Below the pieces are notes generated by a model. That model was not told the origin of the DNA and ran no database searches. It saw only the letters and a program-made list of their open reading frames with translations. From assembly GCA_937927195.1 (NCBI GenBank), contig CALBCY010000170.1:1-64000 (forward strand): DNA of 64,000 bases, in the 5' to 3' direction. Below are positions 1,965 to 63,580 of the stretch, piece by piece. The position numbers and the translations under genes were made by a program. Source of the stretch: an uncultured Chitinophagales bacterium (lineage in GTDB: Bacteria; Bacteroidota; Bacteroidia; Chitinophagales; UBA2359). Every line of letters starts with the position of its first letter. Position 1 is the stretch's first letter.

Positions 1965-2202
1965 ACAGGCTTCTGTTTAATGATTTATCAATTGTAAGAG
2001 CTAAGCTTAAACTGCCATTTCATTCATTCCACCAAGTTAAAATCACTTTGTTATTTAGCAGACATTACAGGATGAATGTGCTGAATTGTTTCAAAAAAAA
2101 ATACGCCCTTTTTTGATAGAAAGCATTTATTCAACTAATTTCCTTTTTGTAAAATGCCTTTATACGCAGCCGGTTGATTTTTGTGATCTAAAACCTTATT
2201 CA

Positions 2203-23600: not shown

Positions 23601-26600
23601 ATATCGTGATTCCTACAACGGTAATATCGCAATTGCCGTCGGGGTCGCAAATGGTGTAAGTGAAAAAGTCAGTCCCGACAAATCCATCGAATGGTGTGTA
23701 ATAGATCAAGTCGCCTATGATGACTAAAGCACCATTTTCTGGCTCAGTAGCATTGCTAATGAAAATGCCTTCTCCAACATCATTGACCATCACATCAATC
23801 TCAACTTCAGTGTTGATTGGTGTTGTTACAACGTCTGGGTTGGCAATAACCAAACCGTTATTTGAAACGTCAATATAAACCCATGCCGTATCACACAGTG
23901 GTGGATTTCCATCATCACAAATTACATAGAATAGCGAATCGACTCCCGTAAATCCAGGCACTGGAATATAGGTTATGGTTCCGTCATCGTTTAAGGTGGC
24001 GTCACCAAATGGAGGATCACTAATTTCAGTTACCGTCAAATTGTTTCCTTCCAAATCAGTATCGTTCAATAAAACATTGATTGTTACTGTGTCTCCTGGG
24101 TTTACATTGGCAAAGTCATCCACAGCCATAGGTGGTGTATTAGACAAGTCAATCCCTACCGCAATAACAACCGTTGCTGTATCACACAAAGCAGTCGCAG
24201 TTGTGTCATCACAAATTACATATTGGAACGTGTATTCTCCTGGCCCAGCTGTTGTATCAGCGATGTAAGTCAAAGTACCATCATCATTGATGATAACAGT
24301 TCCAGCATCTGGACCAATAATTTCAGTAATGTAAAGAGTATCGCCATTTGGATCAAAGTCATTGATCAATACATCCAAAGTAACCGAATCACCCTCAGCA
24401 ATCACGTACTGGTCATTTCCAGCAATTGGTGCCTCGTTTTGAGTGCCAACTTGAATGACAACGGTAGCAGTTGTACATTCTCCGAATATATCGCAAATGG
24501 TATAAATGATGGTCTCTGTTCCTTCAAATCCTTCATCAGGCGTATAAACCAACATTCCGTCTATCACTTCAACAGTTCCGTTTTCAGGCTGCGTTACAGC
24601 TGTAATTTCAATCTGAGTACCTGTATCATTTGCTAAAACGTCAATGGTTACAGTTGAATTAATCGGAGTTAAAACAGTGTCATTGTTGGCAACCAAATCT
24701 TCGGCTTCCAAAACATCCACAACAACATTGGCCGATACGCAATTTCCACATTCATTACAAACAATGTAGTTGAAAGTAGCGGTACCTGTAAATCCATCTG
24801 CTGGCGTGAAGTCCACTGCAGAACTATCTGCGTTTATTACGATGCTTCCTTCTCCTGTTATCAATGATCCAATAGAATCAACATAAATGAATTGGTCGCA
24901 AATTTCTTCGTCATTTAATAAAACATCTAAAGAACTGGTTGTGTTCCATGCAGCGAAGAATTGATCATTCATTGCGATTGGATCTTGACAACCAATAATT
25001 ACATTGTAAAATACTGTGTCACAAATGCCTTCTGAATTGCAAGCAACTGCTTCCAAAATATCATTTTCCAATCCTGGTAATGGAAGGAATGTGAAACATA
25101 CACTGTCTGGCTGAATTTCAACTGAACAGTTAAATATTGATGTCACATATTGCAAGGTGAAATCGTCATCTTCTAAATTGCAGAATGTTGGACAAACAAG
25201 TGTTGGAGTTGTACTTTCAAAGATTGAAGGAGTACAAATATCATAGTTGTTTACACAAACTTCAGCAATTACAAAATCATAAGTTAATGGATTAATGTCC
25301 GCACAAACTAAGCCGTCATCAATCAAGTCTTGAATATCAGAAATGGTTGTTACTCCTAATCCAGATAGATCGTCAACATTTCCAAGGATCGAGATTCCAT
25401 AAATAGAATAAGCTCCTGGTAATAAATTTAATTCTTCCAAATTGAAAGCACCTGTTTGGCTAACAATCACAATGTTGTCTGTACTTAAATCTGTTGTATC
25501 AGCATCGGTCGTAAGCACAAAAGAGTAATTGAACCCAGGCTCTGTTGATTGCCCATTAACTACAGGAGCTAAAGTGGTTTCATCTGCATTGTATTCTGTG
25601 TCATTCGGAATGGTCAATATCCCAGCATTTGCAAAACAGGTGATTTCCTCACCAATAAATAGTGTAACAGATTGGTCAGTAACATGTGCACATAAACCAT
25701 CTTCAATTGCTGCATTAATTCCTTCAATTGATCCTAAATCCAGATCCATTAATTCTTCAATGCTCAATGTTGTTGAAATTCCAAATACATTGTAGGTTCC
25801 ATCTTCCAAGCCTAAAAGTGGCAAGTTAAAAGAACCAGTATCACTTACCAAAATAAGGTCGTATACAATTGCATCTCCCTCTTCTGCATCTGCAGTAAGG
25901 ATATAATAAAAGTTGAAATCTCCCACTTGGTTTTCTCCAGCTACTTCAATAGCAACTGTCACTTGAGGTTCAGGGTAAAATGTTACACTTGGAGTGATCA
26001 ATGTTCCTGCCTCAGCAAAACAAACTGCATTTCCCGTATAATCGTAAACAATTGTATTGCTACTTAAATCTGCACAAACAGATTCATCAGCAATAGCTGC
26101 TTCTAATTCTTCTATAGTTCCATAAGCTAAAACTTCTTCTGCAGTCAATGCAGTTGAAATTCCGATCACAGAAAAGTCTCCACTCGAAACTCCAAACAAA
26201 GTCAAATCAAATGAACTGCTGTCTTCAACTTGAATAATATTTAATGCTGTTTCACCATCAAAAGCCAAAACAAAGTAGTAGCTCAAGTCTTCTATAGAAT
26301 CTTGATCGAAAACATCGATGACTGGAGTAACAACACTGCCATCAATAACTAGATCATCAGGAGCTACCAAGGTTCCAGCGTCTGCGAAACACAGGCCGTC
26401 CGGTTCTCCGATAATGAAATCAAAACTTCCGATTACAACATCTACACAAATATCAGCATTGCCTTCTAATGCTAGTAAGTCCTCACCAGTAGCAATTCCG
26501 TTGGCCATCAATTCATCTAGTGACAAATCAGTAGAAACTCCTATCACATTGAAAATTACATTCGGAACACCGATCATGTTCAAATCGAAAGAACCAGATG

Positions 26601-29600
26601 TTGAGGTTAATATAATATTGTAGGCTATTTCATCGTCTCCATTCACATCTGTCGTTAGGAAATAATAGTAGTTAAATCCTGCGTTGGTCGCATTGTTTTC
26701 AACTTCTAAAGTATCAGTGATTTCAAATCCTTCATAGTTTAATGTTTCAGGCTCTACAAAATTTCCAGCCTGTGCAAAACAAAGGTTAACATTGAAATTA
26801 ATTGGGTCTGCTGTTATTTCAGCACAATATCCTTGGTTAATTGCTTCTTGTAATGCTTCTAAATTCTCAAACATTTCAGGAACCAAATCCAATTCCATAT
26901 CAATTGAAATTCCATAAACACTTACGTCTTCCATTGGGATTCCCAATTGAGATAAGTCAAATTCTCCAAGCGTATCGATTGCTATGATATTGGTCGTAAT
27001 TCCATCATCTTCAATTGCATCAACAACCAATACATAATAGAATGGTAAATCGTCTTCTGCATCTTCTGAAATTACATTTTCAATTACCCCATTGGCATTT
27101 AAATTAGTTGGTCCATCATAAGATAATGTTCCTGCGCTTGCATCGCATGTATCGTTTTCAAGGCCAACAAAAAGAGTAATAGGATTGGACAAGTCCGCAC
27201 ACCAGCCATTCGCTTGATTGTTTTCAATCATTGTGATGGTCGCAAATCCTGCATCACCAAACTCTGCTTGGTCAATTTCAAAATTCAAAGCAAATATTTG
27301 ATAATCTGCATCAGGCAACTCTAAATCACCAAAGTCAAAAGAACCCAAGTCATTGAAGCTCAGAACCATTTGAGTCGTTGTATCAGCCATTGTTGAATCT
27401 GTTACCAATAAAAAGATGGTTGCATATTCTTCCGAATCATTATCGCCAATCAAATTGGGTGCTTCAACAATCCCACCTGAAGGAATAATGATCATACTAG
27501 GTGAAAATAAGATACCCGCATCCGCCAAACAAGAATCGTTTGGTTCAACGACATCTTCGAAGTAAGAAACTTGGAAAGCTGCAATCACAAAGTCAGCACA
27601 TAAACCATCTTCAATGGCTATGGCTAGTTCTTCACCTGTGGTAATATCCAAGGCAAGAATGTCTTCAGCAGTTCCTTCAAAGTTGACAACATGAACATCA
27701 AAAGGTCCGGCCAAAGCCGTGTCTACTTGTCCAAGGTCAAATTCCCCTGTACTGCTCAATTGAACAATATCGTAAGAAATGTCATCCTCAGAATCCAAAT
27801 CAGTTGTCAGTACATATAATTGAGTAAAAGTAGAGTCTGTGTTTTGACCATCCACCAATGGAGCATCGGTTGTGTCGCCACTCATATAAATTAATGTTTC
27901 AGGAATGCTGATTGTTCCAGCATTTGCCAAACAAGAATCGTTTGGTTCAACGACATCTTCAAAGTAAGAAACTTGGAAAGCCGCAATTACAAAATCAGCA
28001 CATAAACCATCTTCAATGGCTGTGGCTAATTCTTCACCTGTTGTTATATCCAAAGCAAGGAGGTCTTCAGTAGTTCCTTCAAAGTTCACAACATGAACAT
28101 CGAAAGGTCCTGCCAAAGCAGTATCAACTTGTCCTAGATCAAATGCTCCAGTACTGCTCAATTGAACAATATCGTAAGAAATGTCATCCTCAGAATCTAA
28201 ATCAGTTGTCAATACATATAATTGAGTAAAAGTAGAATCCGTATTTTGACCATCTACTACAGGAGCATTGGTTGTATCTCCTTCTAGGTAAATTAATGTT
28301 TCTGGAATCGCAATGTTTCCAGCATTTGCCAAGCAAGAATCTACTGGCTCAACTACCCCGTATGAAATGGAATATGCTGCAGTTATCACATCAGCACAGA
28401 GACCATCTTCGATGGCAGTGGTTAATGCTTCAATGCTGTTATAATCCCATGCTACGATGTCTTCTGTAGTCCCTTCAAAGTTGACCACATGAACATCAAA
28501 TGGTCCTTCCAATGCTGGATCAAGACTTCCAAGATTAAATTGACCAGTACTGCTGAATTGAACAAAGTTGTATGAAATTTCATCAGCGGTATCCAAATCA
28601 GTTGTCAATATTAAAAAATGAACAAAATCAAAACTGTTAGTGAATTCGTCCATTAATGGTACATTGGTTGTATCTCCTTCCATGTAAACTAAAACTTCCG
28701 GTGGGCTTACAATCCCAGCAGTTGCCAAACAAGAATCACCAGGCTCGACAACATCTTCAAAATAAGAGATTTGATACGCTTCAATAATAAAGTCTGCACA
28801 CAAACCATCCGCAATTGCATCAAGCAATTCTTCACCTGTTGTCAATTCCAATGCTTGAATGTCTGCAACTGTTCCTTCAAGGTTAAAAGCATGAACATAA
28901 AATGGTCCAGCGAAACTTGTGTCCAATTGACCCAAATCGAATTGTCCATTATCGCTCAATTGAACAATATTGTATAAAACATCATCTTCTGGATCTAGGT
29001 CAGCTGTAAGTACATAAAACTGAAGGAAAGTAGAGTCGGTATTTTGACCTTCAACAATTGGAGCTGCCGAAGTATCACCCATCATGTATATTAATGTTTC
29101 AGGAGCTGTTAAAGTCCCAACATTTGCCAAACAAGAATCAACTGGTTCAACAACGTCTTCTAAAATTGAAATTTGATAAACTGCAACTTCAAAATCTGCG
29201 CAAAATCCATCTGCTAATGCAGCAAGAACATCTTCGCCGCTTGATAGATCCATTTGAACAAAGTCAAGAGCTGTTCCTTCTAGGTTCAAAACATGAACAT
29301 CAAATGGCCCAGCCAAACTCGTATCTATTACGTTTAAATCAAACTCGCCATTGAAACTGGCTTGTATCAAATTGTATAAAGTCTCATCTGTCTCATCCAA
29401 ATCTGTCGTTAATAAGAATACCGTTGTGTATGTTGAATCGGTATTGTTTCCATCTAGAGTTGGAGCGTCAGTCAAAGCACCTGAAGCATAGATCAAAGTT
29501 TCAGGTGCAGTTATATTTCCAACTTCAGCCAAACAACTGTCTACTGGCTCTACAACATCCATTGTATTAAAACCAAAATCAAGATTGTCAACATCCTCTC

Positions 29601-30531
29601 CTGATCCTAAATCAAAAGAATAGGAAAGAGAATCTGAGCTAACCACTAAACTAGGAGGAATAACTGGTATGATTTTATATATACCAGGAATCAACCCTGT
29701 CAATGAAAATAGTCCAAGACTATCTGTAACCAATATTGAGGTGTCTCCGGATTGATCAACCAATTCGAATTCTATGTTTTCTAAATTTGCTTCTGTTGAG
29801 TCCACGATTCCATCAGAATTCATATCCCACCAAGCGAAACCTGAAATTGAAGCCAATGCAAAAAATCCAGCGTCAATACTCAAATCAGCAGATTCAGCGC
29901 CAACAAGTATTGTATCAGAAAATCCAGTTATTGGATCAAAATTGCTGTCCGCTTTATCATCTGTTCCTTGGTATTGTGGTGAGAAATAAATAGTATCAGA
30001 GCCTGCAGGGAAAATTTGCATAACATATAATCCAGAATCAACTGCTGGAAAATGATAAGTTCCAAAAGAACTGAAACCAGAAATTGTATCATTGCTTTCT
30101 ACATTGATCAACAATATTTCTGCTCCATCTATTCCATCTTCTTCTTCAAGGTCTTGAATCCCATTGGCATTTATATCATGCCAAATTCTGTCCCCCACAG
30201 TTGCCGTTAAGCTGGCAAAGTTTGCAAGTGCAGTTTTCTCTGGAGGACAATTCTCAGGACCATCCTCAAGACCATCCTCAAGACAATCCAAAAATGAATT
30301 TGTTTTTGCGGGGGAAGATTCGACGATTGAATCGTCTGGTTCCCAATTTGTACAATTTTCTTCATTTTCGGCAGATAGATTTAATCCCATGCCTGTAAAT
30401 AAAACGAGGAAAATTATGCCGTACAAATGACCGTAGATTCGAGCATATTCAGCTTTTGCTTCGAATGAGTCTGTAGGGGATTTCCCCTTTTGGTTAAACA
30501 GCATATTATTCAGTTTGTATAGGTATTTCAT
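20638..30531 (-). CDS. Giant T9SS adhesin-like protein: SdrD-like, 11 novel repeats, 14 Big_9 domains
   Basis: 3297 residues, strongly acidic. The N-terminus has a long polar leader before the hydrophobic signal segment (about residues 36-54). Order: two SdrD-B-like domains (about 75-325; VGDRIWHDINANGIQDLEEE and ISGFAWWDMNSDGIVD), which in other proteins bind calcium; 11 repeats of about 130 residues (about 330-1760), each opening with D-S-C-L-A-x-A-G or a variant, which I cannot name; a Cys-rich link; 14 cadherin-like/Big_9 (tandem-95) domains (about 1850-3190, motifs NDPPLAVDD, VLANDSDPE and YTPDxGFxGxDxF); and a type B T9SS tail (DALSPNMDGMNDYF, IYNRWGN). It is probably a surface adhesin. 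The PorP/SprF gene lies 120 bases upstream on the same strand. Confidence 0.88.
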   Translation of the reverse strand: MKYLYKLNNMLFNQKGKSPTDSFEAKAEYARIYGHLYGIIFLVLFTGMGLNLSAENEENCTNWEPDDSIVESSPAKTNSFLDCLEDGLEDGPENCPPEKTALANFASLTATVGDRIWHDINANGIQDLEEEDGIDGAEILLINVESNDTISGFSSFGTYHFPAVDSGLYVMQIFPAGSDTIYFSPQYQGTDDKADSNFDPITGFSDTILVGAESADLSIDAGFFALASISGFAWWDMNSDGIVDSTEANLENIEFELVDQSGDTSILVTDSLGLFSLTGLIPGIYKIIPVIPPSLVVSSDSLSYSFDLGSGEDVDNLDFGFNTMDVVEPVDSCLAEVGNITAPETLIYASGALTDAPTLDGNNTDSTYTTVFLLTTDLDETDETLYNLIQASFNGEFDLNVIDTSLAGPFDVHVLNLEGTALDFVQMDLSSGEDVLAALADGFCADFEVAVYQISILEDVVEPVDSCLANVGTLTAPETLIYMMGDTSAAPIVEGQNTDSTFLQFYVLTADLDPEDDVLYNIVQLSDNGQFDLGQLDTSFAGPFYVHAFNLEGTVADIQALELTTGEELLDAIADGLCADFIIEAYQISYFEDVVEPGDSCLATAGIVSPPEVLVYMEGDTTNVPLMDEFTNSFDFVHFLILTTDLDTADEISYNFVQFSSTGQFNLGSLDPALEGPFDVHVVNFEGTTEDIVAWDYNSIEALTTAIEDGLCADVITAAYSISYGVVEPVDSCLANAGNIAIPETLIYLEGDTTNAPVVDGQNTDSTFTQLYVLTTDLDSEDDISYDIVQLSSTGAFDLGQVDTALAGPFDVHVVNFEGTTEDLLALDITTGEELATAIEDGLCADFVIAAFQVSYFEDVVEPNDSCLANAGTISIPETLIYMSGDTTDAPLVDGQNTDSTFTQLYVLTTDLDSEDDISYDIVQLSSTGEFDLGQVDTALAGPFDVHVVNFEGTAEDILALDITTGEELAIAIEDGLCADFVIAAFQVSYFEDVVEPNDSCLADAGILFSPSMIIIPSGGIVEAPNLIGDNDSEEYATIFLLVTDSTMADTTTQMVLSFNDLGSFDFGDLELPDADYQIFALNFEIDQAEFGDAGFATITMIENNQANGWCADLSNPITLFVGLENDTCDASAGTLSYDGPTNLNANGVIENVISEDAEDDLPFYYVLVVDAIEDDGITTNIIAIDTLGEFDLSQLGIPMEDVSVYGISIDMELDLVPEMFENLEALQEAINQGYCAEITADPINFNVNLCFAQAGNFVEPETLNYEGFEITDTLEVENNATNAGFNYYYFLTTDVNGDDEIAYNIILTSTSGSFDLNMIGVPNVIFNVIGVSTDLSLDELMANGIATGEDLLALEGNADICVDVVIGSFDFIIGEPDGLCFADAGTLVAPDDLVIDGSVVTPVIDVFDQDSIEDLSYYFVLAFDGETALNIIQVEDSSSFDLTLFGVSSGDFSVIGISTALTAEEVLAYGTIEELEAAIADESVCADLSSNTIVYDYTGNAVCFAEAGTLITPSVTFYPEPQVTVAIEVAGENQVGDFNFYYILTADAEEGDAIVYDLILVSDTGSFNLPLLGLEDGTYNVFGISTTLSIEELMDLDLGSIEGINAAIEDGLCAHVTDQSVTLFIGEEITCFANAGILTIPNDTEYNADETTLAPVVNGQSTEPGFNYSFVLTTDADTTDLSTDNIVIVSQTGAFNLEELNLLPGAYSIYGISILGNVDDLSGLGVTTISDIQDLIDDGLVCADINPLTYDFVIAEVCVNNYDICTPSIFESTTPTLVCPTFCNLEDDDFTLQYVTSIFNCSVEIQPDSVCFTFLPLPGLENDILEAVACNSEGICDTVFYNVIIGCQDPIAMNDQFFAAWNTTSSLDVLLNDEEICDQFIYVDSIGSLITGEGSIVINADSSAVDFTPADGFTGTATFNYIVCNECGNCVSANVVVDVLEAEDLVANNDTVLTPINSTVTIDVLANDTGTQIEITAVTQPENGTVEVIDGMLVYTPDEGFEGTETIIYTICDIFGECTTATVVIQVGTQNEAPIAGNDQYVIAEGDSVTLDVLINDFDPNGDTLYITEIIGPDAGTVIINDDGTLTYIADTTAGPGEYTFQYVICDDTTATALCDTATVVIAVGIDLSNTPPMAVDDFANVNPGDTVTINVLLNDTDLEGNNLTVTEISDPPFGDATLNDDGTITYIPVPGFTGVDSLFYVICDDGNPPLCDTAWVYIDVSNNGLVIANPDVVTTPINTEVEIDVMVNDVGEGIFISNATEPENGALVIIGDLIYYTPFDGFVGTDFFTYTICDPDGNCDITVVGITIFDGPNQAPTAANDVAMTDLDTPITINVTANDSDPENGNLVITEIINGPDNGTVVINDDGTLTYTPDTGFEGEDEFQYVVCDEADPPLCDTATVVISVNVPLSNDPPLAVDDAYTVAENDFIIFNVTDNDSVGDGETMTVKLGTAPANGTLQLDENGLALYTPDENFEGTDYFLYILCDNGNPALQDTALVTITVEGDGINPTSSLDAQVDIVQTPINTSIPIFVLDNDTWDGNITIKSFSDPINGLVVLDELTNSLVYVPALNYTGEDYFMYWITDDSGACDSATVAILVFNEPNLPPNADNDQETTSPGETVVINVLANDSDPENLPLVVTNVINGPSNGSVIINADGTISYTPDDGFIGEDSFDYIVCDTAIPPLCDTATVVIAVGVDLSNDPPLAVDDYYVGAQDSTISILLLNNDSDPNGDNFSLTFNTNPLFGEVIVNEFGLGNYTPNPGYMGEDQFVYVICDDGFPSLCDTATVFITIDTITISNLPPIVANPDVGQVYINDTISLDILVNDIGTNITITDIEDPENGSIIVIDGGVITYVPDLDFTGIDYFWYTICDEFAQCDSTLVAIEVFDGDNRPPATTNDCFETDTDTPITINVLANDVDPENSALIFQGHDAPGAGGLISVLSFDGSLEYTPPAGFVGVEVFNYNVCDGFFEPGGTALCDSGQVVIKVGGVDAPNHPPVANDSCVIVNNTSVVIDLQLLTSDPDGDNLIYQLATPSVFGDVAIDPLSGTAAYAPFDGFDGTDYFTYIVCDDGLPSLCDTSYIKLIVTDTIDIVNPTDTIVVAVNDSVDVLTGACVQVQVLLNDSFPTTDVTELEISIIAQPINGTLTDNGLGLMEYCPDEGFMNDSDFAVYELCFEGICDTAIIFFNVLGCDLVIPDALSPNMDGMNDYFAIPGLNECYGDNFPEMIIYNRWGNVVFRMVGYTGFDGPASWNGEWQSGNGSSGRDVPDGTYYYILLLDPQNDPDAMRAGFIEVLR

Positions 30532-53081: not shown

Positions 53082-55454
53082 TTACCGTATACTTCCTCTT
53101 GCTCGTCTAACCCTAACATCCGCTCCTATGTCCCAAGCCGCAGTCAAGCCAAAACGCTGACCTTGCCATACACGATCGTAGCTGTTTGTAAAAGTAGGAA
53201 GGGTTGCCCCGCCACTATACACAGCTAGTTCAAATAAGTTTCTTACGTTAAGAGAAATTTGTAATCGATCACTTAAAAATTTGCGACTTAAGCCAGCATT
53301 TATTCCATAATAGGGATCGCGATAGGATTGCAAATAGCGTTGCGCTCCATAATAAAAGAAGGTCGCTTGCATGCGAATTTCTAATGGTAGTTTTCCGCGA
53401 ATTCCTACTTCGCCACTGTAAGTTTGAAATGAGTTTCCAAAATCAACTCCTTTATAGAATCCTTTTTGTTTGAATTCAGAGGCGTTGACTTCTCCTGTTA
53501 ACTGCCAGCCTTTAAATGGCTCGTAAGTAAGAATTAATCCTGCATTTAGAATGCGTTCTTGATCCAAATTGATGGGAAAATAGGTTACCAATCCACTGCT
53601 GTCTTGCAATACTTGTGTATCATAGAAACCATCAATGTAATGTGCAGCAAAGTGGGGTGATATCGTCAATTTATCACTATTGAAGAGCACTTTCAATTCC
53701 ACAAGATCTCTGAAGCTCGGATCTAAATCTGGATTCCCAAAATGCAATTCATTGGGATTGTCGATGCCGCCAAATGGATTTAACTGCCAAAATCCTGGTC
53801 GTTGAATACGTTTGCTATAGCCCAAACTGGCATTGATTTTTTCAGAAAATTTATAGCTGACTGTAGCAGATGGAAATACCCAATTGTATGATTTCTTAAT
53901 GTCTTCGGTTTCAACTTTCGTATCTTCGACTTTAACATTGGTGTATTCACTTCGCAATCCCAACTGAAGCCCCCATTTATCTTTTTCCAAGGAGTATTGA
54001 ACGTAAGCAGCAGCGATGCGTTCATAGTAATCTACCAAATTTTCAAGGTCTCGATAGACCATAAAGTCCTCTGTCAATTTTTCTTCTGCTAGGTAATCAC
54101 TGGAAATGATTCGCATCTCTCCGCGTAAGCCAATTTCTATTTTACCATGCTCGCCTAATTTTTGTTCATAATCTCCTTGCAATAGGTAATCATTGCTGGA
54201 TTCAATGTCTCTTGTACGCAATTGAAAGGCCTCCGACATTGCAGGGAATCGCTCGTTTACAATTGTTAATCCTTGCTCATCATTGTCCCAAAAATCGTTT
54301 TGAAATAAAATAAAAAATTTGCTGCCCTCTTTAGAAAGATCTTGCGCCCAAGAGGCTTCAATCTGGTGATAGTTCTGTGGCTCTAAATAGTCATAAGTTT
54401 GGAACCAATCACGTTGTAAATTTTGATTGCCATCGCTATAAGCATAATCCACTAAAGATTGGTCATCATCTGTTTGATGATAATAGGAATAGGAGGCACT
54501 GAGGGTTGTCTTTTCAGTCGGACGAAAATCCAAACCAAAGAATGCATTCCCTGCTTTGTCATTTCGCTCTTGCGTTAAATCTTCGATTAATATTTGGGTT
54601 CCACTCGGCAATTGACTATTTCGCTTGGCATCGCCCGTGCTAAAATAATCGGAATACCGCAATCCGGCATTGCCGAAATAGGTCCACTTGTTTTCGGTTC
54701 TTGAAAAACTTCCATTGATTCGGTAATCAGCCGGTGCGCCAACAGAAACACTTACTTGACCACCCCCATTTTTGGCATTTTGATCTTTGAGAATGATGTT
54801 TATGATTCCTGCATTACCTGCCGCTTCATAACGAGCTGAAGGGTTGGTCATAATTTCAACTTTAGCTATGTTAGAAGCAGGAATTCCTTGCAGGGCATTG
54901 TTGTCGGCCAAGGCAGATGGCTTGCCATTGATCAATACTTTTACAGAAGAATTGCCTCGTAAACTGACAATGCCTTCTTGAGAAACATTGACCATAGGAA
55001 CATTGTCAAGTACTTCGTTGGCCGTTCCTCCTTGCGAGACAATATCTGCTCCGACGTCAAATATTTGTTTGTCCAATTTCAAGGTAAGCCTGCTGCGTTC
55101 TGCAGTGACAGTGGCTCCTTCTAGTTCAAAGGCAGAACTGGACATTTTAATGTCACCAAGATCATAATTAGCACTAAGCTCAAGAGTTGTGTCTAGTGAG
55201 GAATAACCTATAAATTCAAATTTGAGTTTATAGAGCCCTTTAGGCAAACGGATTGAAAATTTTCCAGTACTGTCTGTAATGGCTCCTGTAACCAGCAGTT
55301 CCTCATTGTCAAATGCGGAGACGGTTGCAAATTCCAAAGGTTCATTAAAATCTGCATCGACGATGCGTCCTGAAAGGTCAACTTTGGCAGGCAAAGCAGA
55401 GGCTGAAAGGCTACTAGAAATTACCAGCGCCATTAGTATGAAATAGAATCTCAT
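53082..55454 (-). CDS. Outer-membrane beta-barrel receptor (TonB-type) with carboxypeptidase-like domain
   Basis: 790 residues with a signal peptide (about 1-20, SASALPAKVD). It begins with a CarboxypepD_reg domain (DLSGRIVDADFNEPLEFATV, then GAITDSTGKFSIRLPKG). A plug-like domain follows (QIFDVGADIVSQGGTANEVL, SLRGNSSVKVLINGKPSAL, IMTNPSARYEAAGNAGIINI). The barrel (about 220-790) is of the outer membrane beta-barrel family (OMP_b-brl_3 type). Its C-terminus ends RARGSIR, not in the usual Phe. The plug lacks a clear TonB box, so TonB dependence is uncertain. Ligand unknown. Convergent with the MOSC gene. Confidence 0.85.
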   Translation of the reverse strand: MRFYFILMALVISSSLSASALPAKVDLSGRIVDADFNEPLEFATVSAFDNEELLVTGAITDSTGKFSIRLPKGLYKLKFEFIGYSSLDTTLELSANYDLGDIKMSSSAFELEGATVTAERSRLTLKLDKQIFDVGADIVSQGGTANEVLDNVPMVNVSQEGIVSLRGNSSVKVLINGKPSALADNNALQGIPASNIAKVEIMTNPSARYEAAGNAGIINIILKDQNAKNGGGQVSVSVGAPADYRINGSFSRTENKWTYFGNAGLRYSDYFSTGDAKRNSQLPSGTQILIEDLTQERNDKAGNAFFGLDFRPTEKTTLSASYSYYHQTDDDQSLVDYAYSDGNQNLQRDWFQTYDYLEPQNYHQIEASWAQDLSKEGSKFFILFQNDFWDNDEQGLTIVNERFPAMSEAFQLRTRDIESSNDYLLQGDYEQKLGEHGKIEIGLRGEMRIISSDYLAEEKLTEDFMVYRDLENLVDYYERIAAAYVQYSLEKDKWGLQLGLRSEYTNVKVEDTKVETEDIKKSYNWVFPSATVSYKFSEKINASLGYSKRIQRPGFWQLNPFGGIDNPNELHFGNPDLDPSFRDLVELKVLFNSDKLTISPHFAAHYIDGFYDTQVLQDSSGLVTYFPINLDQERILNAGLILTYEPFKGWQLTGEVNASEFKQKGFYKGVDFGNSFQTYSGEVGIRGKLPLEIRMQATFFYYGAQRYLQSYRDPYYGINAGLSRKFLSDRLQISLNVRNLFELAVYSGGATLPTFTNSYDRVWQGQRFGLTAAWDIGADVRVRRARGSIR

Positions 55455-55597: not shown

Positions 55598-58500
55598 TTA
55601 TTTTTGAAAATATTTCAGGATTGCTGCTTCGTTTAAAAGTAAAGCATGTTTATAAGGTGTCCATTTATCATCGCTGGATTGAATCTTTGAATTATCGAGA
55701 AAATCTTTATCCATTCCTGTTACTTCACTTCGGTCCAGGTAGCTGACTCGATCTTTGTTCAATATATATTCGTTCCTTGTTAAGTTGTAGTTTGTATTTG
55801 CTCCCGCATCAATTAGAACAGCCAAGACTTCAATGTTTTGAGATTCAACTGCTATCAGCAAAGGTGTTGCTCCGATGTATTCCCATACCAAAGGTTGATT
55901 CCCATGATTCCCATCGGTACTAGAATAATGCATTTTTGCATCAATTTTTGCATTGTTGTCCAATAGTAACTGAGCCATTTGATCGTGGTTTTCAAGTGCT
56001 GCATAATGCAAAGCTGTCAATCCTGAAACTGAGCTCTTATTGATATCGGCATCTTGTTGGATCAGGAATTTAGCGATGTCGATGCGGTTTGTCATTGCTG
56101 CAACCATTATTGCGGTTTGGCCAGTTTCATCCTTTGAATTAACCGAGTGGCCATTGTTCAATAATCTTTGACAATCTTCCACAGAACCATTTCGTGCTGC
56201 TTCCAATAAGTCCGGCATATCTTCTGTAAGATTATACTGTTTCAGGTGAAAACCATCGGCTGTATTGTGGAGCGTTTCTCTTTTCGCCTCGTCTTTGAGA
56301 ATGACCTTTTGGGTGGCTTTATCTATGTATTTTTGCACTCCGTTCTGGACAATGTCTTCCACAATATTTTGAATCTTTTTTTCTAGGCCAGTTTCTTGAC
56401 TATTGTCGTAATGTGATTTACCATTTTCATTATGGTCCATCCACAATTGATTTTCTGTAACCAAACCAATAAATTTTGTAAGATCTGAATTTCCTCTAGA
56501 AAGGCTCAGCTCATAAGCCCTGTTGCCGTCTACATCTTTGATTTGAACATTTGCTCCTTGTGAAACCAAGAAAGCAATTGCATCCTTTTTAGCATCTAAA
56601 GCAGCATACATTAGTGGCGTTCGGCCTTGATTGTCTTGAGCATTGATATCGGCTCCCAATTCGACCAATACGCTCATATCGATGTTGTGATTTTCTGCAG
56701 ATGAAATATGAAGAGGCGTTCGGCCATAATTGTCTCTGGAATTTACATCCGTCCCATTTTCAACCATTCGTTGCGCTTTTTCGATAAGCCCATCTAATGT
56801 GGCTTGGTGTATGGCAGGCAAGTGAGACGACCTATCCTCAAATGTGTCGGAATGTGTTCCACGATTTTCAGAATTTGTTCTTAGAGCCTCTAGTAAATCT
56901 CTTATTTCGTACTCCTCCTCCCATTCTGCATAATCTTTTGCTGTTGCTCCAAATAGGTCAATTATTGAAATGTCTGCGCCTGCTTCAATTAATTTCACAA
57001 CTGAATTCATATTCCCTTCTGAAGCAGCATGCATCAGAGCAGTGTGACCATTAACATCTTTTTTATTGATGTTTACTTTTTGTGAAATTAAGTAATCGAT
57101 TATAGATCCTTTGTTCTCTGCAGCAGCATTATGAAGTGGTGGCAAACTTTTGCCAATTCCATTAATATTGGCTCCATTGGCTAAAAGCAATTGAAGGCAA
57201 TTGAGTTTTCCTTCTGAAGCAGCCATACTAATGGCAGTCGGACTATCCTGTATCGAATAATAATCGATTTTAGCACCAGCCTTCAACAATAGTTTCATAC
57301 TTGCCAATGAACCTTCATCAGCTGCTTCAATCAAAGCAGTCCAACCATTGTATACCAGATCCACATCTGCTCCTTGTTCAATTAAATACTCAACAATCTC
57401 AACCTCGTCCTCATTCACGGCGGCCATCAAGGCAGTGAAACATCCAGAACCAATGCCGTTGACATCTATTCCAGATTTTACCAATGTCTTTACAAAGTCG
57501 AGATCTCCTTCCTCGCAGGCCATTACTAGCGCATCAATTCTTGTCGCTGCTGTATTGATAGGATCAACAGGATCAACTGGATCAATTGGTTCTTCTGGAT
57601 TCTCTGGGTCTTCTGGTTCGGCCACTGGTAATTGGCTTAAATCTTTTTCACTGGTTGTCGAATTTTGATCATTTTCATCAGCATCAGTATCATCAGTTAT
57701 TTTTATTGTAACTGTTGTCTCCCTTCTTGATTCATTTAAGGACGACTCTGTGCTTGCCTTAGTTTCAGTTTCAGTTTCAGTTTCAATTTCAATGCCATTC
57801 GGCATCTCCTCATTGGAATTGGGATTTGAATTATCATTGGAAACAACTTTTGTTTTGTCAATTGCAGTTTGGCTTTGTGAATCTGTTGCCTGTGCGGTCC
57901 TTCCCGTTACAACTAGACCGAGCACCAAGGCAGTGATTAAAATGCAGGCAGTTGCAAATCCTTCTCTAAAGGTTCCTGCACCATTGCTTCCCATAAACAA
58001 TCTGCGGATCCTACCGGAAAATCCACCTCTTTCTCTTTTTTTATTTTTCCCTGAAAAGGCCATTGCCATAGCAGGGTTTTGCTGCATCCTCAATTGCAGC
58101 TCAGATACATTGATCAAAGTCTTTGCATAAGAAGTAGCAGGACCTGTAGCGGCCACTGCTAGATCATCGCAACAATGCTCCCTTTCGTCATCTATTCTAT
58201 TGCTCATCCACCAGACACCAGGGTGAAAGAAAAAGACATTGCATAGAAAAGTCTGCATTAGATTGACCATGAAATCTTCTCGACGAATGTGCGCCAATTC
58301 GTGGGCCAAAACTGCATAAATTTCTGTTTCTGATAAGCTGTTAAAAAGCTGTTGTGGGAGCAGAACAACTGGTTTGAGCCAACCGATAACCATAGGAGAT
58401 TCCACACGAATACTAGTGAGGTAGGCTACCTTTTTTTGAATTCTTAACTTGTTTTCAAGTTCCTCAATTCTATCAGTCCAAGCTGCGGGAAACAACTGAG

Positions 58501-59008
58501 TACCGTAATGTTTCAGTCGCTGAACATAGGCCAATTGGCCTAAAAAACGCAACTGTAAAAACAAGACTCCCATAAACCAAAGGGTAACCAAAAGAGGCAA
58601 ATGACGATCATAATAATCTCTAAATGCAACAATCCAACTAGATTGAGTTTGAGCGGATATCTCGTTTTCGAGTGGGGGAGTACTTTGAGTTTTGTTATTT
58701 GACTGAAATACTATTGCTGTATTATTGTTAAATGTAGAGGCAATCTCTCCTGAATTCAATTGGACTGCAGACATTTCATTTCGACTATTTGCATCTTCCC
58801 AATGTTGCCAAAAAGTTACAGACACAGTAAGGAAGAATGCACAGAGTATACCTACCGAAACGATGTACCTCGATTGGGCGGTATAGCTTCGCAGAGCGAT
58901 CAATATCAATACCAAAACAATTGCAAAAACTGCTCCTTGCCAAATGCTGTGAAGCAAGGTCCATCCCAATGCTTCTACGGATTGTGGGTTTAAGATGTAT
59001 TCGATCAT
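55598..59008 (-). CDS. M56/BlaR1-like membrane peptidase fused to ankyrin repeats
   Basis: 1136 residues. Residues about 1-390 are a BlaR1/MecR1-type M56 module: membrane helices near 15-38, 45-65, 130-152 and 365-388, and the zinc motif HELAH at 236-240 (VLAHELAHIRRED), with REHCCDDLAV downstream. An acidic, low-complexity linker (about 395-500) follows, including an ET-repeat and PVDPVDPIN. Residues about 500-1130 carry about 15 ankyrin repeats in three groups. The usual penicillin-sensor domain is missing. The ATG overlaps the BlaI-type gene stop by four bases. By analogy with BlaR1 it would cleave the repressor after a signal; here the ankyrins may be the sensor. The cut has not been shown. 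Confidence 0.85.
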   Translation of the reverse strand: MIEYILNPQSVEALGWTLLHSIWQGAVFAIVLVLILIALRSYTAQSRYIVSVGILCAFFLTVSVTFWQHWEDANSRNEMSAVQLNSGEIASTFNNNTAIVFQSNNKTQSTPPLENEISAQTQSSWIVAFRDYYDRHLPLLVTLWFMGVLFLQLRFLGQLAYVQRLKHYGTQLFPAAWTDRIEELENKLRIQKKVAYLTSIRVESPMVIGWLKPVVLLPQQLFNSLSETEIYAVLAHELAHIRREDFMVNLMQTFLCNVFFFHPGVWWMSNRIDDEREHCCDDLAVAATGPATSYAKTLINVSELQLRMQQNPAMAMAFSGKNKKRERGGFSGRIRRLFMGSNGAGTFREGFATACILITALVLGLVVTGRTAQATDSQSQTAIDKTKVVSNDNSNPNSNEEMPNGIEIETETETETKASTESSLNESRRETTVTIKITDDTDADENDQNSTTSEKDLSQLPVAEPEDPENPEEPIDPVDPVDPINTAATRIDALVMACEEGDLDFVKTLVKSGIDVNGIGSGCFTALMAAVNEDEVEIVEYLIEQGADVDLVYNGWTALIEAADEGSLASMKLLLKAGAKIDYYSIQDSPTAISMAASEGKLNCLQLLLANGANINGIGKSLPPLHNAAAENKGSIIDYLISQKVNINKKDVNGHTALMHAASEGNMNSVVKLIEAGADISIIDLFGATAKDYAEWEEEYEIRDLLEALRTNSENRGTHSDTFEDRSSHLPAIHQATLDGLIEKAQRMVENGTDVNSRDNYGRTPLHISSAENHNIDMSVLVELGADINAQDNQGRTPLMYAALDAKKDAIAFLVSQGANVQIKDVDGNRAYELSLSRGNSDLTKFIGLVTENQLWMDHNENGKSHYDNSQETGLEKKIQNIVEDIVQNGVQKYIDKATQKVILKDEAKRETLHNTADGFHLKQYNLTEDMPDLLEAARNGSVEDCQRLLNNGHSVNSKDETGQTAIMVAAMTNRIDIAKFLIQQDADINKSSVSGLTALHYAALENHDQMAQLLLDNNAKIDAKMHYSSTDGNHGNQPLVWEYIGATPLLIAVESQNIEVLAVLIDAGANTNYNLTRNEYILNKDRVSYLDRSEVTGMDKDFLDNSKIQSSDDKWTPYKHALLLNEAAILKYFQK

Positions 59009-59397
59009 TTTGATTTGTTTTCCAGTGAATCAATATAAGCTTTCAACTCTTCGAGTTCTTCTGCATCAGGTGTATGCTGGCCGAGTGCACGCATCACCAG
59101 TTTCTTTGCAGAGCCACCAAATGCTTTATCTAGAAAGGAACCCAAGAGCTTGTCCTGTGTCGCCGTCTGAGCGATCACTGCTCTATAAATGTGTTTGCGA
59201 CCTTCGGAAGTTCGATCCAACATTCCTCGTTCCATCATGACTTGCATCGTTTTCAATACAGTGGTATAAACAACTGGCTTGTTTTTTTCCAGTGCTAGGT
59301 GAACATCCTTGACCGATAGTGGTCCATTGGTCCAAAGCAATTGGAGAATTGACAGTTCTGATGCTGTCGGAGCGGTATGTGATTCTTTATTTTTCAT
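59005..59397 (-). CDS. BlaI/MecI/CopY-family transcriptional repressor
   Basis: 130 residues from the ATG at 59397. The frame is open to a TTG at 59421, but that codon lies inside the operator, so I reject it. The winged helix (about 8-75, ASELSILQLLWTNGPLSVKD and YTTVLKTMQVMMERGML) and a C-terminal dimerisation part (about 80-125) match BlaI/MecI/CopY, which are cleaved by an M56 peptidase to lift repression. The M56-ankyrin gene follows with a four-base overlap. A 19-bp-arm inverted repeat ends three bases before the start codon. Confidence 0.92.
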   Translation of the reverse strand: MKNKESHTAPTASELSILQLLWTNGPLSVKDVHLALEKNKPVVYTTVLKTMQVMMERGMLDRTSEGRKHIYRAVIAQTATQDKLLGSFLDKAFGGSAKKLVMRALGQHTPDAEELEELKAYIDSLENKSK

Positions 59398-59399
59398 GG

Positions 59400-59450
59400 T
59401 ACTACGATTTCTCTCGTACAAATATACGAGAAAAATCGTAGTAAAGCAAA
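59400..59450 (-). promoter_or_regulatory. BlaI-type operator overlapping the promoter
   Basis: TACTACGATTTCTCTCGTA (59400-59418) and TACGAGAAAAATCGTAGTA (59425-59443) form an inverted repeat with 19-bp arms and one mismatch around a 6-base centre. On the minus strand the centre holds TATATTTG (59419-59426), a perfect Bacteroidota -7 element. TTTG (59447-59450) lies 20 bases upstream as the -33 element. The outer ACTACG/CGTAGT halves recall the ACTACA/TGTAGT core of BlaI/CopY operators. This strongly suggests autorepression. Confidence 0.75.
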
Positions 59451-59889: not shown

Positions 59890-61017
59890 GTGTTTTACGA
59901 TGTTATCATAGTAGGTGGAGGTCTAGCTGGATTGACAAGTGCAGTGCACTTGTCAAAAAAAGGCTTATCGGTCCTTTTAATAGAAAAAAACGAATATCCC
60001 AAACATAAGGTTTGTGGAGAATACATTTCTAATGAAGTACTGCCATATTTGAAAGCTTTAGATTTTAATCCATTTGACTATGGAGCAAAAAACATTGTTG
60101 AATTTACTTTAAGTACTCCAGGCAGCAGGTCTGTAAGTACAAAATTGCCAACAGGGGGATTTAGTATTAGTCGATACTGCATAGATTGGGAGTTGTCTAA
60201 AAAAGCAAAACAATATGGAGCTAAAATATTGCATGTCAATGTTACAGACATTCAATTCAACAATGATCAATTTGAAGTTTGGACCAACCAAAACAAGAAA
60301 TACACGGCTGAATTAGTGATCGGGTCTTTTGGAAAGCGATCTAATTTGGATGTTAAAATGAAAAGAGGTTTTATACAAAAACCTTCTCCTTTTCTAGGGG
60401 TCAAAGCGCATTACAAGGGAGATTTTCCTGAAGATGCTGTTGGTTTGCACAATTTTGAAGGAGGTTATTGTGGGATATCCAAAGTGGAAAACGACCACAT
60501 CAATGTTTGTTATATTGCAGATTTCAAGTCTTTTAAGGAACATAAGAACATAGACGATTTTCAAAAGAAAGTACTCAGTCAAAACAAATATTTAAAAGAT
60601 GTGTTTGATAACTATGAATTGGTTTTCGAAAAACCTTTGTCGATAAGCCAAGTTTCATTTTCAAAAAAACAAGCAGTTGAGAACCATATATTAATGTGTG
60701 GTGACAGTGCTGGAATGATTCATCCTTTGGCAGGAAATGGAATGAGTATGGCCATTAGAGCCGCTCAAATGGCTTCACAACAAATTTTAAAATTTAAAAC
60801 GGGTAAAATACAATCTAGAACAGAATTAGAAAAACAATACACTAAAATTTGGAACAATGAGTTTGCGACTAGATTACAGTCTGGACACATCATTGCCAGG
60901 TTATTTAGACTGGGATGGTTTTCTGAGTTGATTATGGTATTTTTGAAGATCTTTCCATTTATTTTACCAAAAATTATAAAAAACACACACGGCAAAATTA
61001 TGAAGGCCGAGTTGTAA
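59890..61017 (+). CDS. FAD-dependent oxidoreductase, geranylgeranyl-reductase-like
   Basis: 375 residues with a GTG start at 59890. The Rossmann motif is at the N-terminus (DVIIVGGGLAGLTSAVHLSK), followed by KHKVCGEYIS, and the second FAD motif is CGDSAGMIHPLAGNGMSMAI (about 275-294). This fits the geranylgeranyl-reductase/aromatic-hydroxylase-like flavoproteins. In this operon, with a methyltransferase and a type III PKS, it could hydroxylate or reduce a phenolic lipid product, as SrsC does in Streptomyces griseus. The exact reaction is inference. The next gene starts after 12 bases. Confidence 0.82.
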   Translation: MFYDVIIVGGGLAGLTSAVHLSKKGLSVLLIEKNEYPKHKVCGEYISNEVLPYLKALDFNPFDYGAKNIVEFTLSTPGSRSVSTKLPTGGFSISRYCIDWELSKKAKQYGAKILHVNVTDIQFNNDQFEVWTNQNKKYTAELVIGSFGKRSNLDVKMKRGFIQKPSPFLGVKAHYKGDFPEDAVGLHNFEGGYCGISKVENDHINVCYIADFKSFKEHKNIDDFQKKVLSQNKYLKDVFDNYELVFEKPLSISQVSFSKKQAVENHILMCGDSAGMIHPLAGNGMSMAIRAAQMASQQILKFKTGKIQSRTELEKQYTKIWNNEFATRLQSGHIIARLFRLGWFSELIMVFLKIFPFILPKIIKNTHGKIMKAEL

Positions 61018-61029
61018 TATTGTCAAAGG

Positions 61030-61737
61030 ATGTTTATCGATACAAGCCATAGAAGTAAGGAAATTGAGATCATGGATGATCTGGATATGAGTGGTGCGCT
61101 ATTGATAAAAACACTGGATCAAATTGCTGGTATAAACAAATGGTTGGGCGGAAACGGTTTGACGATTGATGGCTTAAAAAAAATACTGAAAAATCAAGCC
61201 AAAGATCGGACCATTAGGATAGTCGACTTAGGCTGTGGAAATGGTGATATGCTGCGGGAAGTTGCCGCATTTGGTAAAAAAAATGCCTATAAATTCCAGT
61301 TGTTGGGTTTAGATGCAAATCAAGCCACCATTGAACATGCGAAACAATTATCGACAGATTTTCCAGAAATAAGTTACAAAAAAGAAGACGTTCTATCTGA
61401 AGAATTTAAAGCGCATACTTATGATGTTGCGCTGTGCACCTTGTTTCTCCATCATTTTGAAGACGATGTTGCACTTAATTTTATTAGAACCCTAATTAAG
61501 CAAGCTAAAATAGGAATTGTAATTAATGATTTGCATCGTCACTGGTTGGCTTATTATCTATTCAAACTGTTGACATTGCTTATTGATAATCCGATGGTTA
61601 AAACAGATGGATTAATTTCTATTTTAAGAGGATTTAAGCGCAAAGATTTGCAGCACTTTTCCGAACAATTAAATTGTAAAAGTACTATTGCTTGGCGGTG
61701 GGCATTTCGTTACCAATGGATTATAAACAAAAAATGA
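61030..61737 (+). CDS. SAM-dependent methyltransferase
   Basis: 235 residues. A class I methyltransferase fold with motif I RIVDLGCGNGDMLREV (about 58-73), LGLDANQATIEHA as the acidic loop, and CTLFLHHFEDD before the substrate domain. A hydrophobic segment (HWLAYYLFKLLTLLI) in the C-terminal half may contact the membrane or a lipid substrate. Its stop overlaps the ATG of the type III PKS gene by four bases, so it is translated with it. It is likely to methylate the polyketide or quinone product, as SrsB does. Confidence 0.85.
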   Translation: MFIDTSHRSKEIEIMDDLDMSGALLIKTLDQIAGINKWLGGNGLTIDGLKKILKNQAKDRTIRIVDLGCGNGDMLREVAAFGKKNAYKFQLLGLDANQATIEHAKQLSTDFPEISYKKEDVLSEEFKAHTYDVALCTLFLHHFEDDVALNFIRTLIKQAKIGIVINDLHRHWLAYYLFKLLTLLIDNPMVKTDGLISILRGFKRKDLQHFSEQLNCKSTIAWRWAFRYQWIINKK

Positions 61738-62786
61738 GCGTAAAAATAACATCAGTAGCAAGCCAGCTGCCACCTTATACAAGATCTACAAAGGAAATAA
61801 TCCCCTACCTTAAAGTTTGGCTTAGTGGGCAAGAAGAAAGGTATCAGCGAAAAGTAATTAAACTATTCGAAAATGCTGGAGTAGAAAGAAGGTATTCTAT
61901 CATGGATGCAGAAGAAGTTTTTCTTCATACTTCCTTTGAGGAAAAAAATGAGGTGTATAAACGTGAAACCATAAAATTGGCAAAAGGAGCCTTGGTTAAA
62001 GCTTTGAATAAAGCCAGTCTAAAAGCTACTGACATTGATTTTATTATTACTGTCAGTTGCACAGGAATCATGATACCATCTGTCGATGCTTATCTGATAA
62101 ATGAGTTGAAGATGAAACAGGACATTGTGCGACTTCCCGTTACTGAAATGGGTTGTGTAGCTGGAATTTCTGGGATGATATATGCCAACAATTTCCTTAA
62201 AGCCAATCCAAATAAACGTGCGGTTGTCATTGCGGTTGAATCGCCTACTTCCACTTTTCAAATAGAGGATTTCTCAATGGTCAACATTGTAAGCGCTGCT
62301 ATTTTTGGTGATGGATGTGCTTGTACTGTCCTTTCTTCTTATGAAAAAGAACAAGGTCCCGAAATAATAGATGACGCGATGTATCACTTTTACAATGCAG
62401 AGCATATGATGGGATTTGAACTTAAAAACTCTGGACTTCAGATGGTTTTAGACAAAGAGGTTCCTGAAAAAATTGCCGAACATTTTCCTAAATTTATCCA
62501 CCCTTTTTTAGAACGAAATGGCATAAGCATAAAAGACGTAGATCATTTAATATTTCACCCTGGAGGTAAAAAAATTGTACAAACGATAGAAGACCTTTTT
62601 GGCTCTTTAGGAAAGAATATAGACATCACAAAAGCGGTTTTGAAGGAATATGGAAACATGTCAAGTGCCACTGTAATTTACGTGCTTGAAAGATTTATAA
62701 ATCAAGGTGTTAAACAGGGAGATATAGGATTAATGCTTAGCTTTGGACCGGGATTTACAGCACAAAGATTGTTATTGAAATGGTAA
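61734..62786 (+). CDS. Type III polyketide synthase (chalcone/alkylresorcinol synthase family)
   Basis: 350 residues from the ATG at 61734, which overlaps the methyltransferase stop. The catalytic triad is visible: Cys141 (VTEMGCVAGISG), His275 (IFHPGGKK) and Asn308 (EYGNMSSAT). The 33-residue gap between His and Asn equals that in plant chalcone synthase (303 and 336). The starter is probably a fatty acyl group from the downstream fatty-acid-type enzymes, extended with malonyl units to a pyrone, resorcinol or phloroglucinol. Product unknown. Its stop overlaps the SDR gene start. Confidence 0.93.
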   Translation: MSVKITSVASQLPPYTRSTKEIIPYLKVWLSGQEERYQRKVIKLFENAGVERRYSIMDAEEVFLHTSFEEKNEVYKRETIKLAKGALVKALNKASLKATDIDFIITVSCTGIMIPSVDAYLINELKMKQDIVRLPVTEMGCVAGISGMIYANNFLKANPNKRAVVIAVESPTSTFQIEDFSMVNIVSAAIFGDGCACTVLSSYEKEQGPEIIDDAMYHFYNAEHMMGFELKNSGLQMVLDKEVPEKIAEHFPKFIHPFLERNGISIKDVDHLIFHPGGKKIVQTIEDLFGSLGKNIDITKAVLKEYGNMSSATVIYVLERFINQGVKQGDIGLMLSFGPGFTAQRLLLKW

Positions 62787-63580
62787 AAGAATTTGAAGAT
62801 AAAAACGAGTGGGCCATTATCCTTGGTGGCTCTAGCGGCTTGGGCTTAGCTACTGCCAAGAAACTGGCAAAAGAGGGCTTAAACCTATGTCTGGTTTATC
62901 GGAATCGAAAAAGTGATCTTCCAAGAATTGAATCAGCATTTGAAACCATTGTTGCAAGCAGTAAAGTGAAGCTGATTCATTTTAATAAGGATGTGGTAAA
63001 AGCAGAAAATAGAGAAATCATCCTTTGTGAGCTAGAAAAAGTTTTGCTAGAAACTGGGAAAGTGAAATGTCTGATTCACAGCATAGCCAAGGGTAACTTG
63101 AAGCCCATGAAACATGATGAAAAGAGAGCATTGCAAAACGATGATTTCCACATAACGATGGAGAACATGGCTTTTAGTTTATATGATTGGACAAAACATG
63201 TTTTTAACAAAAAACTATTCTCAAAAGACGCGCGCATCATCAGCTTTACCAGTGAGGGAAATAAGAGAGCTTGGAAAAATTATGCAGCTGTTTCTGCAGC
63301 AAAAGTTGCGCTGGAAGCCATAAGCAGAAATATAGCCTTAGAATTTGCTAGCGAAGGAATTAAGTCGAATTGTATAGAAGCTGGAGTAACGGATACTGCC
63401 TCATTCAGAATGATTCCGGGTAATGAACAATTAAAAGAGTATGCAATAAAGCGCAATCCAAACAATAGATTGACCAGTCCAGAAGACATAGCCAATGTGG
63501 TTTATTTATTAACAAAGGAAGAATCAAAATGGATTACAGGGGTTACGATTCCTGTGAACGGTGGAGAACATTTAAGTTAG
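62780..63580 (+). CDS. SDR-family reductase, enoyl-ACP reductase (FabI/FabL)-like
   Basis: 266 residues. The NAD(P) motif is GGSSGLG (about 16-22). The active-site spacing is Tyr168-x6-Lys175 (NYAAVSAAKVALEAISRNIA), which is the FabI/FabL spacing rather than the usual SDR Tyr-x3-Lys. The C-terminus (PEDIANVVYLLTKEESKWIT) is typical. It would reduce enoyl-ACP in making the acyl starter or tailoring the polyketide. It begins seven bases before the PKS stop, and a FabZ-like gene follows. Confidence 0.85.
   Translation: MVKEFEDKNEWAIILGGSSGLGLATAKKLAKEGLNLCLVYRNRKSDLPRIESAFETIVASSKVKLIHFNKDVVKAENREIILCELEKVLLETGKVKCLIHSIAKGNLKPMKHDEKRALQNDDFHITMENMAFSLYDWTKHVFNKKLFSKDARIISFTSEGNKRAWKNYAAVSAAKVALEAISRNIALEFASEGIKSNCIEAGVTDTASFRMIPGNEQLKEYAIKRNPNNRLTSPEDIANVVYLLTKEESKWITGVTIPVNGGEHLS

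Follow-up and report, generated by a model that had tools for sequence, protein, structure and literature searches.

The closest described relatives of the locus analysed here are the BlaR1/MecR1-BlaI/MecI systems of Firmicutes, in which an M56 gluzincin protease and an adjacent winged-helix repressor gene form a self-regulated operon with dyad operators; BlaR1 has an N-out, C-out topology, with its sensor outside and its protease in the cytoplasm (PMC9834060). BlaI-M56 gene pairs also recur across the Bacteroidota sample examined, many of them with dyads and with a variable C-terminal periplasmic arm that is coiled, disordered or TonB_C-like, and no described input was found in the literature searched for such pairs when they carry no penicillin sensor. 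A further comparison is offered by FecA-FecR-FecI and similar systems, which link a TonB-type receptor of the outer membrane to a regulator in the inner membrane and in which the receptor is autoregulated.

The window, that is, the whole 64,000-nucleotide stretch of DNA that was analysed, contains an operon in which a BlaI-type repressor gene is followed by a gene for an M56 protease fused to ankyrin repeats (M56-ANK) and then by a gene for an outer-membrane barrel (Table 1). The locus resembles the Firmicutes systems in its gluzincin protease with the same catalytic residues, in a probable N-out, C-out topology, in the adjacent repressor gene and in the dyad operators of what would be a self-regulated operon. 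Unlike them, it has an ankyrin solenoid instead of a penicillin-binding sensor, an operator of a different sequence (TACGA-N6-TCGTA), different residues at the BlaI cleavage site and an outer-membrane barrel as its putative output. Other Bacteroidota pairs, such as those at the three other M56 loci of the same genome, share the gene pair and the variable arm but are without ankyrins and mostly without a linked barrel of this subfamily. As in FecA-FecR-FecI, an outer-membrane receptor would be coupled to an inner-membrane regulator, whereas neither an STN domain nor a sigma/anti-sigma pair is present and repressor proteolysis is predicted instead. No report joining ankyrins with BlaR1 or M56 was found in the literature searched, which was thin in subscription journals; BlaI/M56 also matched in a BAM-complex paper, apparently through unrelated prefix matches to catalogue numbers, and in incidental table entries of a P. 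gingivalis methylome paper.

Table 1. Features of the BlaI, M56-ANK and barrel operon in the window
Feature	Position	Strand	Basis
-33 element of the Bacteroidota promoter (likely), TTG	59447..59449	minus	20 nt from the -7 element
Tandem operator (predicted), dyads TACGATTTTTCTCGTA (59425-59440) and TACGAGAGAAATCGTA (59403-59418)	59403..59440	minus	sequence, conservation
Promoter -7 element, TATATTTG	59419-59426	minus	between both dyads, overlapping
BlaI/MecI/CopY-type repressor, 130 aa from ATG at 59397	59005..59397	minus	Pfam PF03965, alignments to 1sd4 and 1okr
M56-ANK gene, 1136 aa	55598..59008	minus	intact open reading frame
M56 membrane protease module, residues 1-372, four TM helices	57893..59008	minus	Pfam PF05569, alignment to BlaR1 chain 8exp
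HELAH zinc motif, residues 236-240	58289..58303	minus	aligned with BlaR1 H201/E202/H205
Acidic, Pro-rich, presumably flexible linker, residues 373-482	57563..57892	minus	low pLDDT, 37% mean conservation, strongly negative net charge
Ankyrin block 1, residues 483-714, about 7 repeats	56867..57562	minus	Pfam, AlphaFold2, conservation
Ankyrin block 2, residues 732-850, 4 repeats	56459..56815	minus	Pfam, AlphaFold2, conservation
Ankyrin block 3 and C-terminal cap, residues 933-1131, 4-5 repeats	55616..56212	minus	Pfam, AlphaFold2, conservation
Outer-membrane beta-barrel, TonB-dependent-receptor-like	53082..55454	minus	OMP_b-brl_3 291 bits, Plug 30 bits (Pfam)

Architecture and topology of the M56-ankyrin protein

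The sequence-only reading of this stretch had described an M56 peptidase fused to about 15 ankyrin repeats and had proposed profile searches for both parts, and these detect both. Peptidase_M56 (PF05569) matches residues 21-322 with 115 bits (cut-off 31) and the Ank families reach up to 240 bits (Ank_2), so that the protein, with its HExxH and ExxxD motifs and surrounding TM helices, belongs to peptidase family M56 and, by the tandem 33-residue helix-turn-helix units seen in Pfam, AlphaFold2 and PDB fold matches, is an ankyrin repeat protein. An AlphaFold2 model built from an eight-sequence alignment contains 15-16 ankyrin helix pairs (mostly pLDDT 80-95) in three blocks divided by two low-confidence spacers, and ankyrin solenoids are among the Foldseek matches listed for the arm; pLDDT in the TM part is mostly below 60 and the model is not usable there. 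Mean majority identity among close orthologues is 73-78% in the ankyrin blocks vs 29-43% in the linker and spacers. The same reading was also right to place HELAH at residues 236-240 and an acidic linker, which begins past the fourth TM helix, ahead of three ankyrin groups, and its view that ankyrins stand where a beta-lactam-binding domain would be agrees with the Pfam scan, in which no penicillin-binding/transpeptidase domain was matched. An assembly or frameshift artefact, or a chance fusion, was ruled out by the full-length protein in many independent genomes (31).

The catalytic centre was compared by alignment with the S. aureus BlaR1 cryo-EM chain 8exp, using residue roles from PMC9834060. 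Residues H236, E237, H240, D245, E277, D281 and Y294 of M56-ANK correspond to H201, E202, H205, D210, E242, D246 and Y261 of BlaR1, with E277 as the third zinc ligand among the catalytic residues downstream of HELAH, and F318 aligns with F284, the P1' residue of BlaR1 autocleavage. These seven positions are invariant in 34/34 M56-ANK proteins, and all but two of the 34 (32) have F, L or V at position 318. The NCBIfam BlaR1 model scores 102 against a cut-off of 400, with the BlaR1/MecR1 models as a whole far below cut-off, and the C-terminal sensor domain that defines BlaR1/MecR1 is replaced by ankyrins; the adjacent BlaI/MecI-type repressor and the operator at a shared promoter are both present. 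The best reading of this combination is a protein that works like BlaR1 with BlaI and stands outside the beta-lactam sensors.

The gluzincin domain lies between TM3 and TM4 and is predicted to be cytoplasmic. Across the 34 proteins, median net charges are -2 for the N-terminus, +3 for loop 1, -4.5 for loop 2 and +5 for the TM3-TM4 segment, followed by -12 for the first 100 residues after TM4. Because both this charge pattern and the BlaR1 topology fit, we infer that the ankyrin arm is in the periplasm, a placement further supported by the signal peptides of homologous stand-alone ankyrin proteins.

Repressor gene, promoter and predicted operator

The repressor gene lies directly upstream of M56-ANK, and the two reading frames share 4 bp, at the stop of the repressor and the start of M56-ANK. 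Its product belongs to the BlaI/MecI/CopY family (PF03965, 87.5 bits against a cut-off of 22.6, residues 19-131), has the winged helix and dimerisation domain of that family according to Pfam and aligns with BlaI 1sd4 and MecI 1okr. The listed reading frame starts at TTG 59421, inside the operator, and translation most probably begins at ATG 59397 instead. The consensus of Bacteroidota promoters is TTG-N19-21-TAnnTTTG, and the promoter of the operon reads TTG-N20-TATATTTG.

One to three dyads, usually two or three, are found at the promoter of every M56-ANK locus with readable upstream DNA. The tandem pattern occurs in 25/25 tested genomes, with zero matches to a reversed-pattern control, and in the window's genome it is found only at the BlaI-M56-ANK-barrel operon; most other tandem matches of the 25 genomes have TACGAA...TTCGTA cores. 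A dyad pair of this type, 14 bp apart and thus outside the limits of the tandem pattern, stands at another BlaI-M56 locus of the window's genome. A wider dyad regulon in that genome was considered and rejected, single TACGA-N6-TCGTA matches numbering 7 vs 10 in the reversed control.

The alignment places R-A in the window's repressor at the scissile N101-F102 of BlaI, so that these residues are not conserved. BlaI proteins of the ankyrin clade have R or K at the P1-equivalent position, where other BlaI mostly have Q, and this sequence difference suggests that the cleavage specificity of BlaI has diverged.

Elsewhere in the window, genes for an FAD oxidoreductase and for methyltransferase-like, type III polyketide synthase and enoyl-reductase-like proteins run divergently from the operon (59890-63580, plus strand), and two large proteins are encoded, a surface protein of 3297 aa that has a type IX secretion signal and numerous domains of the bacterial Ig/cadherin-like kind (20638-30531, minus strand) and a 2311-aa VWA/FG-GAP type IX substrate (2086-9021).

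Distribution of the fusion, its linked barrel and a second M56 lineage

GTDB genomes and sampled genomes of the order, phylum and family were surveyed, with the best few candidates per genome scored, so that prevalence is a lower bound. The end-to-end fusion was found in 31 genomes from 14 genus codes and two family codes, the hosts being certain aquatic bacteria; 395 genomes of the phylum yielded no further case at the threshold applied, and no relatives were found in viral contigs. The cassette is present in Neolewinella antarctica DSM 105096. The M56-domain tree, which also included 35 unfused proteins, groups 33 fused ones in a single clade (support 100/100); the arm is fused to M56 throughout the clade, which splits into two branches. 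Only one of the 20 genomes of family f1 (G000) carries the fusion with an M56 domain that nests among family f18 proteins, possibly through lateral transfer or a mis-binned contig.

The barrel gene is the last of the operon and starts 143 bp downstream of M56-ANK, with no dyad or TAnnTTTG element seen in the gap. Pfam places a CarboxypepD_reg domain and a plug at the N-terminus of its product, and its top Foldseek matches are TonB-dependent transporters, which makes it a TonB-dependent-receptor-like barrel with plug; the STN signalling domain of FecA-type receptors was not found by Pfam, CarboxypepD_reg being there instead. An orthologous barrel comes next in 22/24 readable loci of the window's branch, with the order BlaI-M56ANK-barrel, the 4-bp overlap and mostly short gaps; it is missing from the other two, and two further loci are cut off by the end of their contig. 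The second branch has the orthologous barrel next in 0/8 loci, and a barrel follows unfused M56 genes in 1/37, where it is of another subfamily. Barrel orthologues without BlaI/M56 occur in two genomes (G066, G173) and apparently in a third (G105). An invariable pairing of arm and barrel is thus ruled out by the barrel-less subclade of 8 and by the solo barrels, and the link is strong in one branch and not obligatory. Among close orthologues, barrels are 74-80% identical vs 57-66% for M56-ANK.

Several neighbouring arrangements were also recorded. Sister barrels (L182, L183, L184, L211, L212) stand divergently beside LytTR response regulator and histidine kinase genes, with 7TMR-DISM matches at two of the scanned loci. 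A second M56-ANK copy in G170 (L050) precedes a PF00144 serine hydrolase with TPR in place of a barrel. The neighbours of other BlaI-M56 pairs vary widely and include a DUF5916/CBM9 protein (L091, L092, L093, L062), a PDZ/Por_Secre_tail protein (L063) and an M28 peptidase (L068); unfused M56 proteins have coiled or charged arms, or other repeats.

Ankyrins also occur on a second M56 lineage. In G773 (L181, 2428-7968), a different BlaI and an M56 of this lineage with ankyrins (Pfam 47 bits, zinc motif HEKIH) precede an orthologous barrel (841 bits), with an operator-like sequence of the TACTAA..TTAGTA type that is unlike the window's; the M56-ANK of the first type in that genome is without a linked barrel. 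Four more Pfam-confirmed members of the lineage carry ankyrins (L230, L231, L232, L236) and other members do not. The arm of the member in G712 (L207, 416-3658) consists of another helical repeat, IHGV....YI..L...GF, and is followed by a secreted protein with the IHGV repeat and then by the orthologous barrel, whose gene is in two frames. For a further candidate (L234, G704), considered as a third independent fusion, the M56 was statistically inseparable from the main clade (AU p = 0.22); it was set aside, and the claim is limited to two M56 chassis.

Stand-alone ankyrin proteins from six genomes (L237-L242, 354-381 aa) share 42-49% identity with the C-terminal ankyrins of the G773 protein; their N-termini are Sec-type signal-peptide-like as judged by eye, and one of the six was checked by Pfam. 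Their genes stand beside LytS/LytTR-type two-component (histidine kinase) genes, apparently as part of a conserved cluster for envelope signalling that is so far uncharacterised. They resemble the present case in placing a secreted ankyrin module, homologous to the second-lineage arm, beside envelope signalling genes, and differ from it in being encoded separately and in belonging to a histidine-kinase pathway. Since both a second M56 lineage and secreted stand-alone proteins carry ankyrins, these behave as an exchangeable periplasmic module.

A proposed envelope-sensing switch and its alternatives

We regard as reasonably probable a self-regulated, three-gene envelope-signalling operon of BlaI, M56-ANK and outer-membrane receptor, with a periplasmic protein or peptide as input and BlaI proteolysis as the response. 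BlaI dimers on the two dyads seen to bracket the promoter would keep BlaI, M56-ANK and the barrel low. M56-ANK would span the inner membrane, its two termini on the outer side and its protease in the cytoplasm, as homology and charge suggest, and the flexible linker would carry the ankyrin solenoid in the periplasm, where a protein or peptide may bind to the arm or leave it. Passing along the TM helices, the signal would then reach the zinc protease, as in BlaR1, and cleavage of BlaI by M56-ANK would induce the operon and, with it, the outer-membrane receptor. The ligand, the weakest step of this scheme, would most likely come from the cell envelope, as a protein or peptide that has some connection with the receptor of the downstream gene; M56-ANK probably senses such a molecule and not an antibiotic. 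This three-gene switch is favoured because gene order, catalytic residues, operator, topology, the secreted homologues of the second-lineage arm, the close conservation of the barrel and the second ankyrin M56 with its barrel agree, and it is weakened by the replacement of N101-F102, the solo barrels, the barrel-less subclade, the non-ankyrin arm before a barrel in G712 and the poor model of the TM part.

The sequence-only reading is partly supported by these results. The repressor gene and the conserved predicted operator directly upstream supply the BlaI-type partner that its switch would need, and the periplasmic side of a fused arm agrees with it. It had tied the sensor idea to retention of the zinc site in homologues, which holds in 34/34, and to the ankyrin part not being a separate, unlinked gene in relatives; the separate homologues are secreted envelope proteins (signal peptides by eye), and the fusion stays conserved. 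The three blocks may, as it suggested, offer more than one binding face. What it missed are the repressor gene with its operator and the outer-membrane receptor gene, the probable output.

A more specific reading, which we hold only tentatively, is that the arm binds the periplasmic side of its cognate receptor, whether the plug, CarboxypepD_reg or an unassembled precursor, and signals occupancy or assembly to BlaI in a FecA-FecR-like feedback that would use ankyrins and proteolysis. The tight operon linkage in the window's subclade, the recurrence of an ankyrin M56 with an orthologous barrel on the second chassis and the restriction of the tandem operator to this operon in the window's genome are in line with it, as is an estimate from lengths by which the linker and the roughly 15 repeats may be long enough to extend to the outer membrane. 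The arm and the barrel also show correlated evolutionary distances (rho 0.83, partial 0.66 given M56), although the data are not independent. This reading is countered by the other subclade, whose arm has no linked barrel, by barrels that occur without the arm and by the lack of an STN domain in the barrel.

It is unlikely that the arm is instead a scaffold or anchor, for instance to peptidoglycan or envelope proteins, with the TM part and periplasmic loop sensing membrane or wall stress and the arms serving as interchangeable spacers. Related M56 proteins of the phylum bear coiled, charged or repetitive arms, so that any arm may suffice, but the ankyrin blocks are conserved residue by residue across genera, unlike the linker and spacers. 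A cytoplasmic ankyrin part that brings BlaI, or other proteins of the cytosol, to the protease would suit the cytosolic location of most characterised ankyrins; it is improbable in view of the N-out, C-out topology of BlaR1, the charge pattern of the 34 proteins and the signal peptides on homologues of related arms. A true BlaR1 beta-lactam sensor-transducer controlling a resistance gene is highly improbable despite the M56 and BlaI relationship, given the absence of a penicillin-binding/transpeptidase domain in the Pfam scan, the low NCBIfam BlaR1 score and a downstream gene that, where read, encodes a barrel and not a beta-lactamase, with the PF00144 hydrolase after the G170 paralogue as the exception.

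The preferred reading of a periplasmic protein or peptide switch makes M56-ANK a compact and conserved case, confined to one operon, whose protein-binding sensor and output can both be recognised and in which input and proteolysis alike are testable. If it is true, the BlaR1 mechanism would widen from antibiotic to periplasmic protein sensing, and a BlaI-type switch with an engineerable ankyrin input would become available. A broader and rather doubtful extension is a family of trans-envelope switches in which periplasmic arms of ankyrins or another solenoid, exchangeable between BlaR1-like protease chassis, detect the state of a cognate outer-membrane receptor, or its cargo, and respond through BlaI proteolysis; if true, signals would travel from the outer membrane to the cytoplasm with no need for sigma factors, STN domains or kinases.
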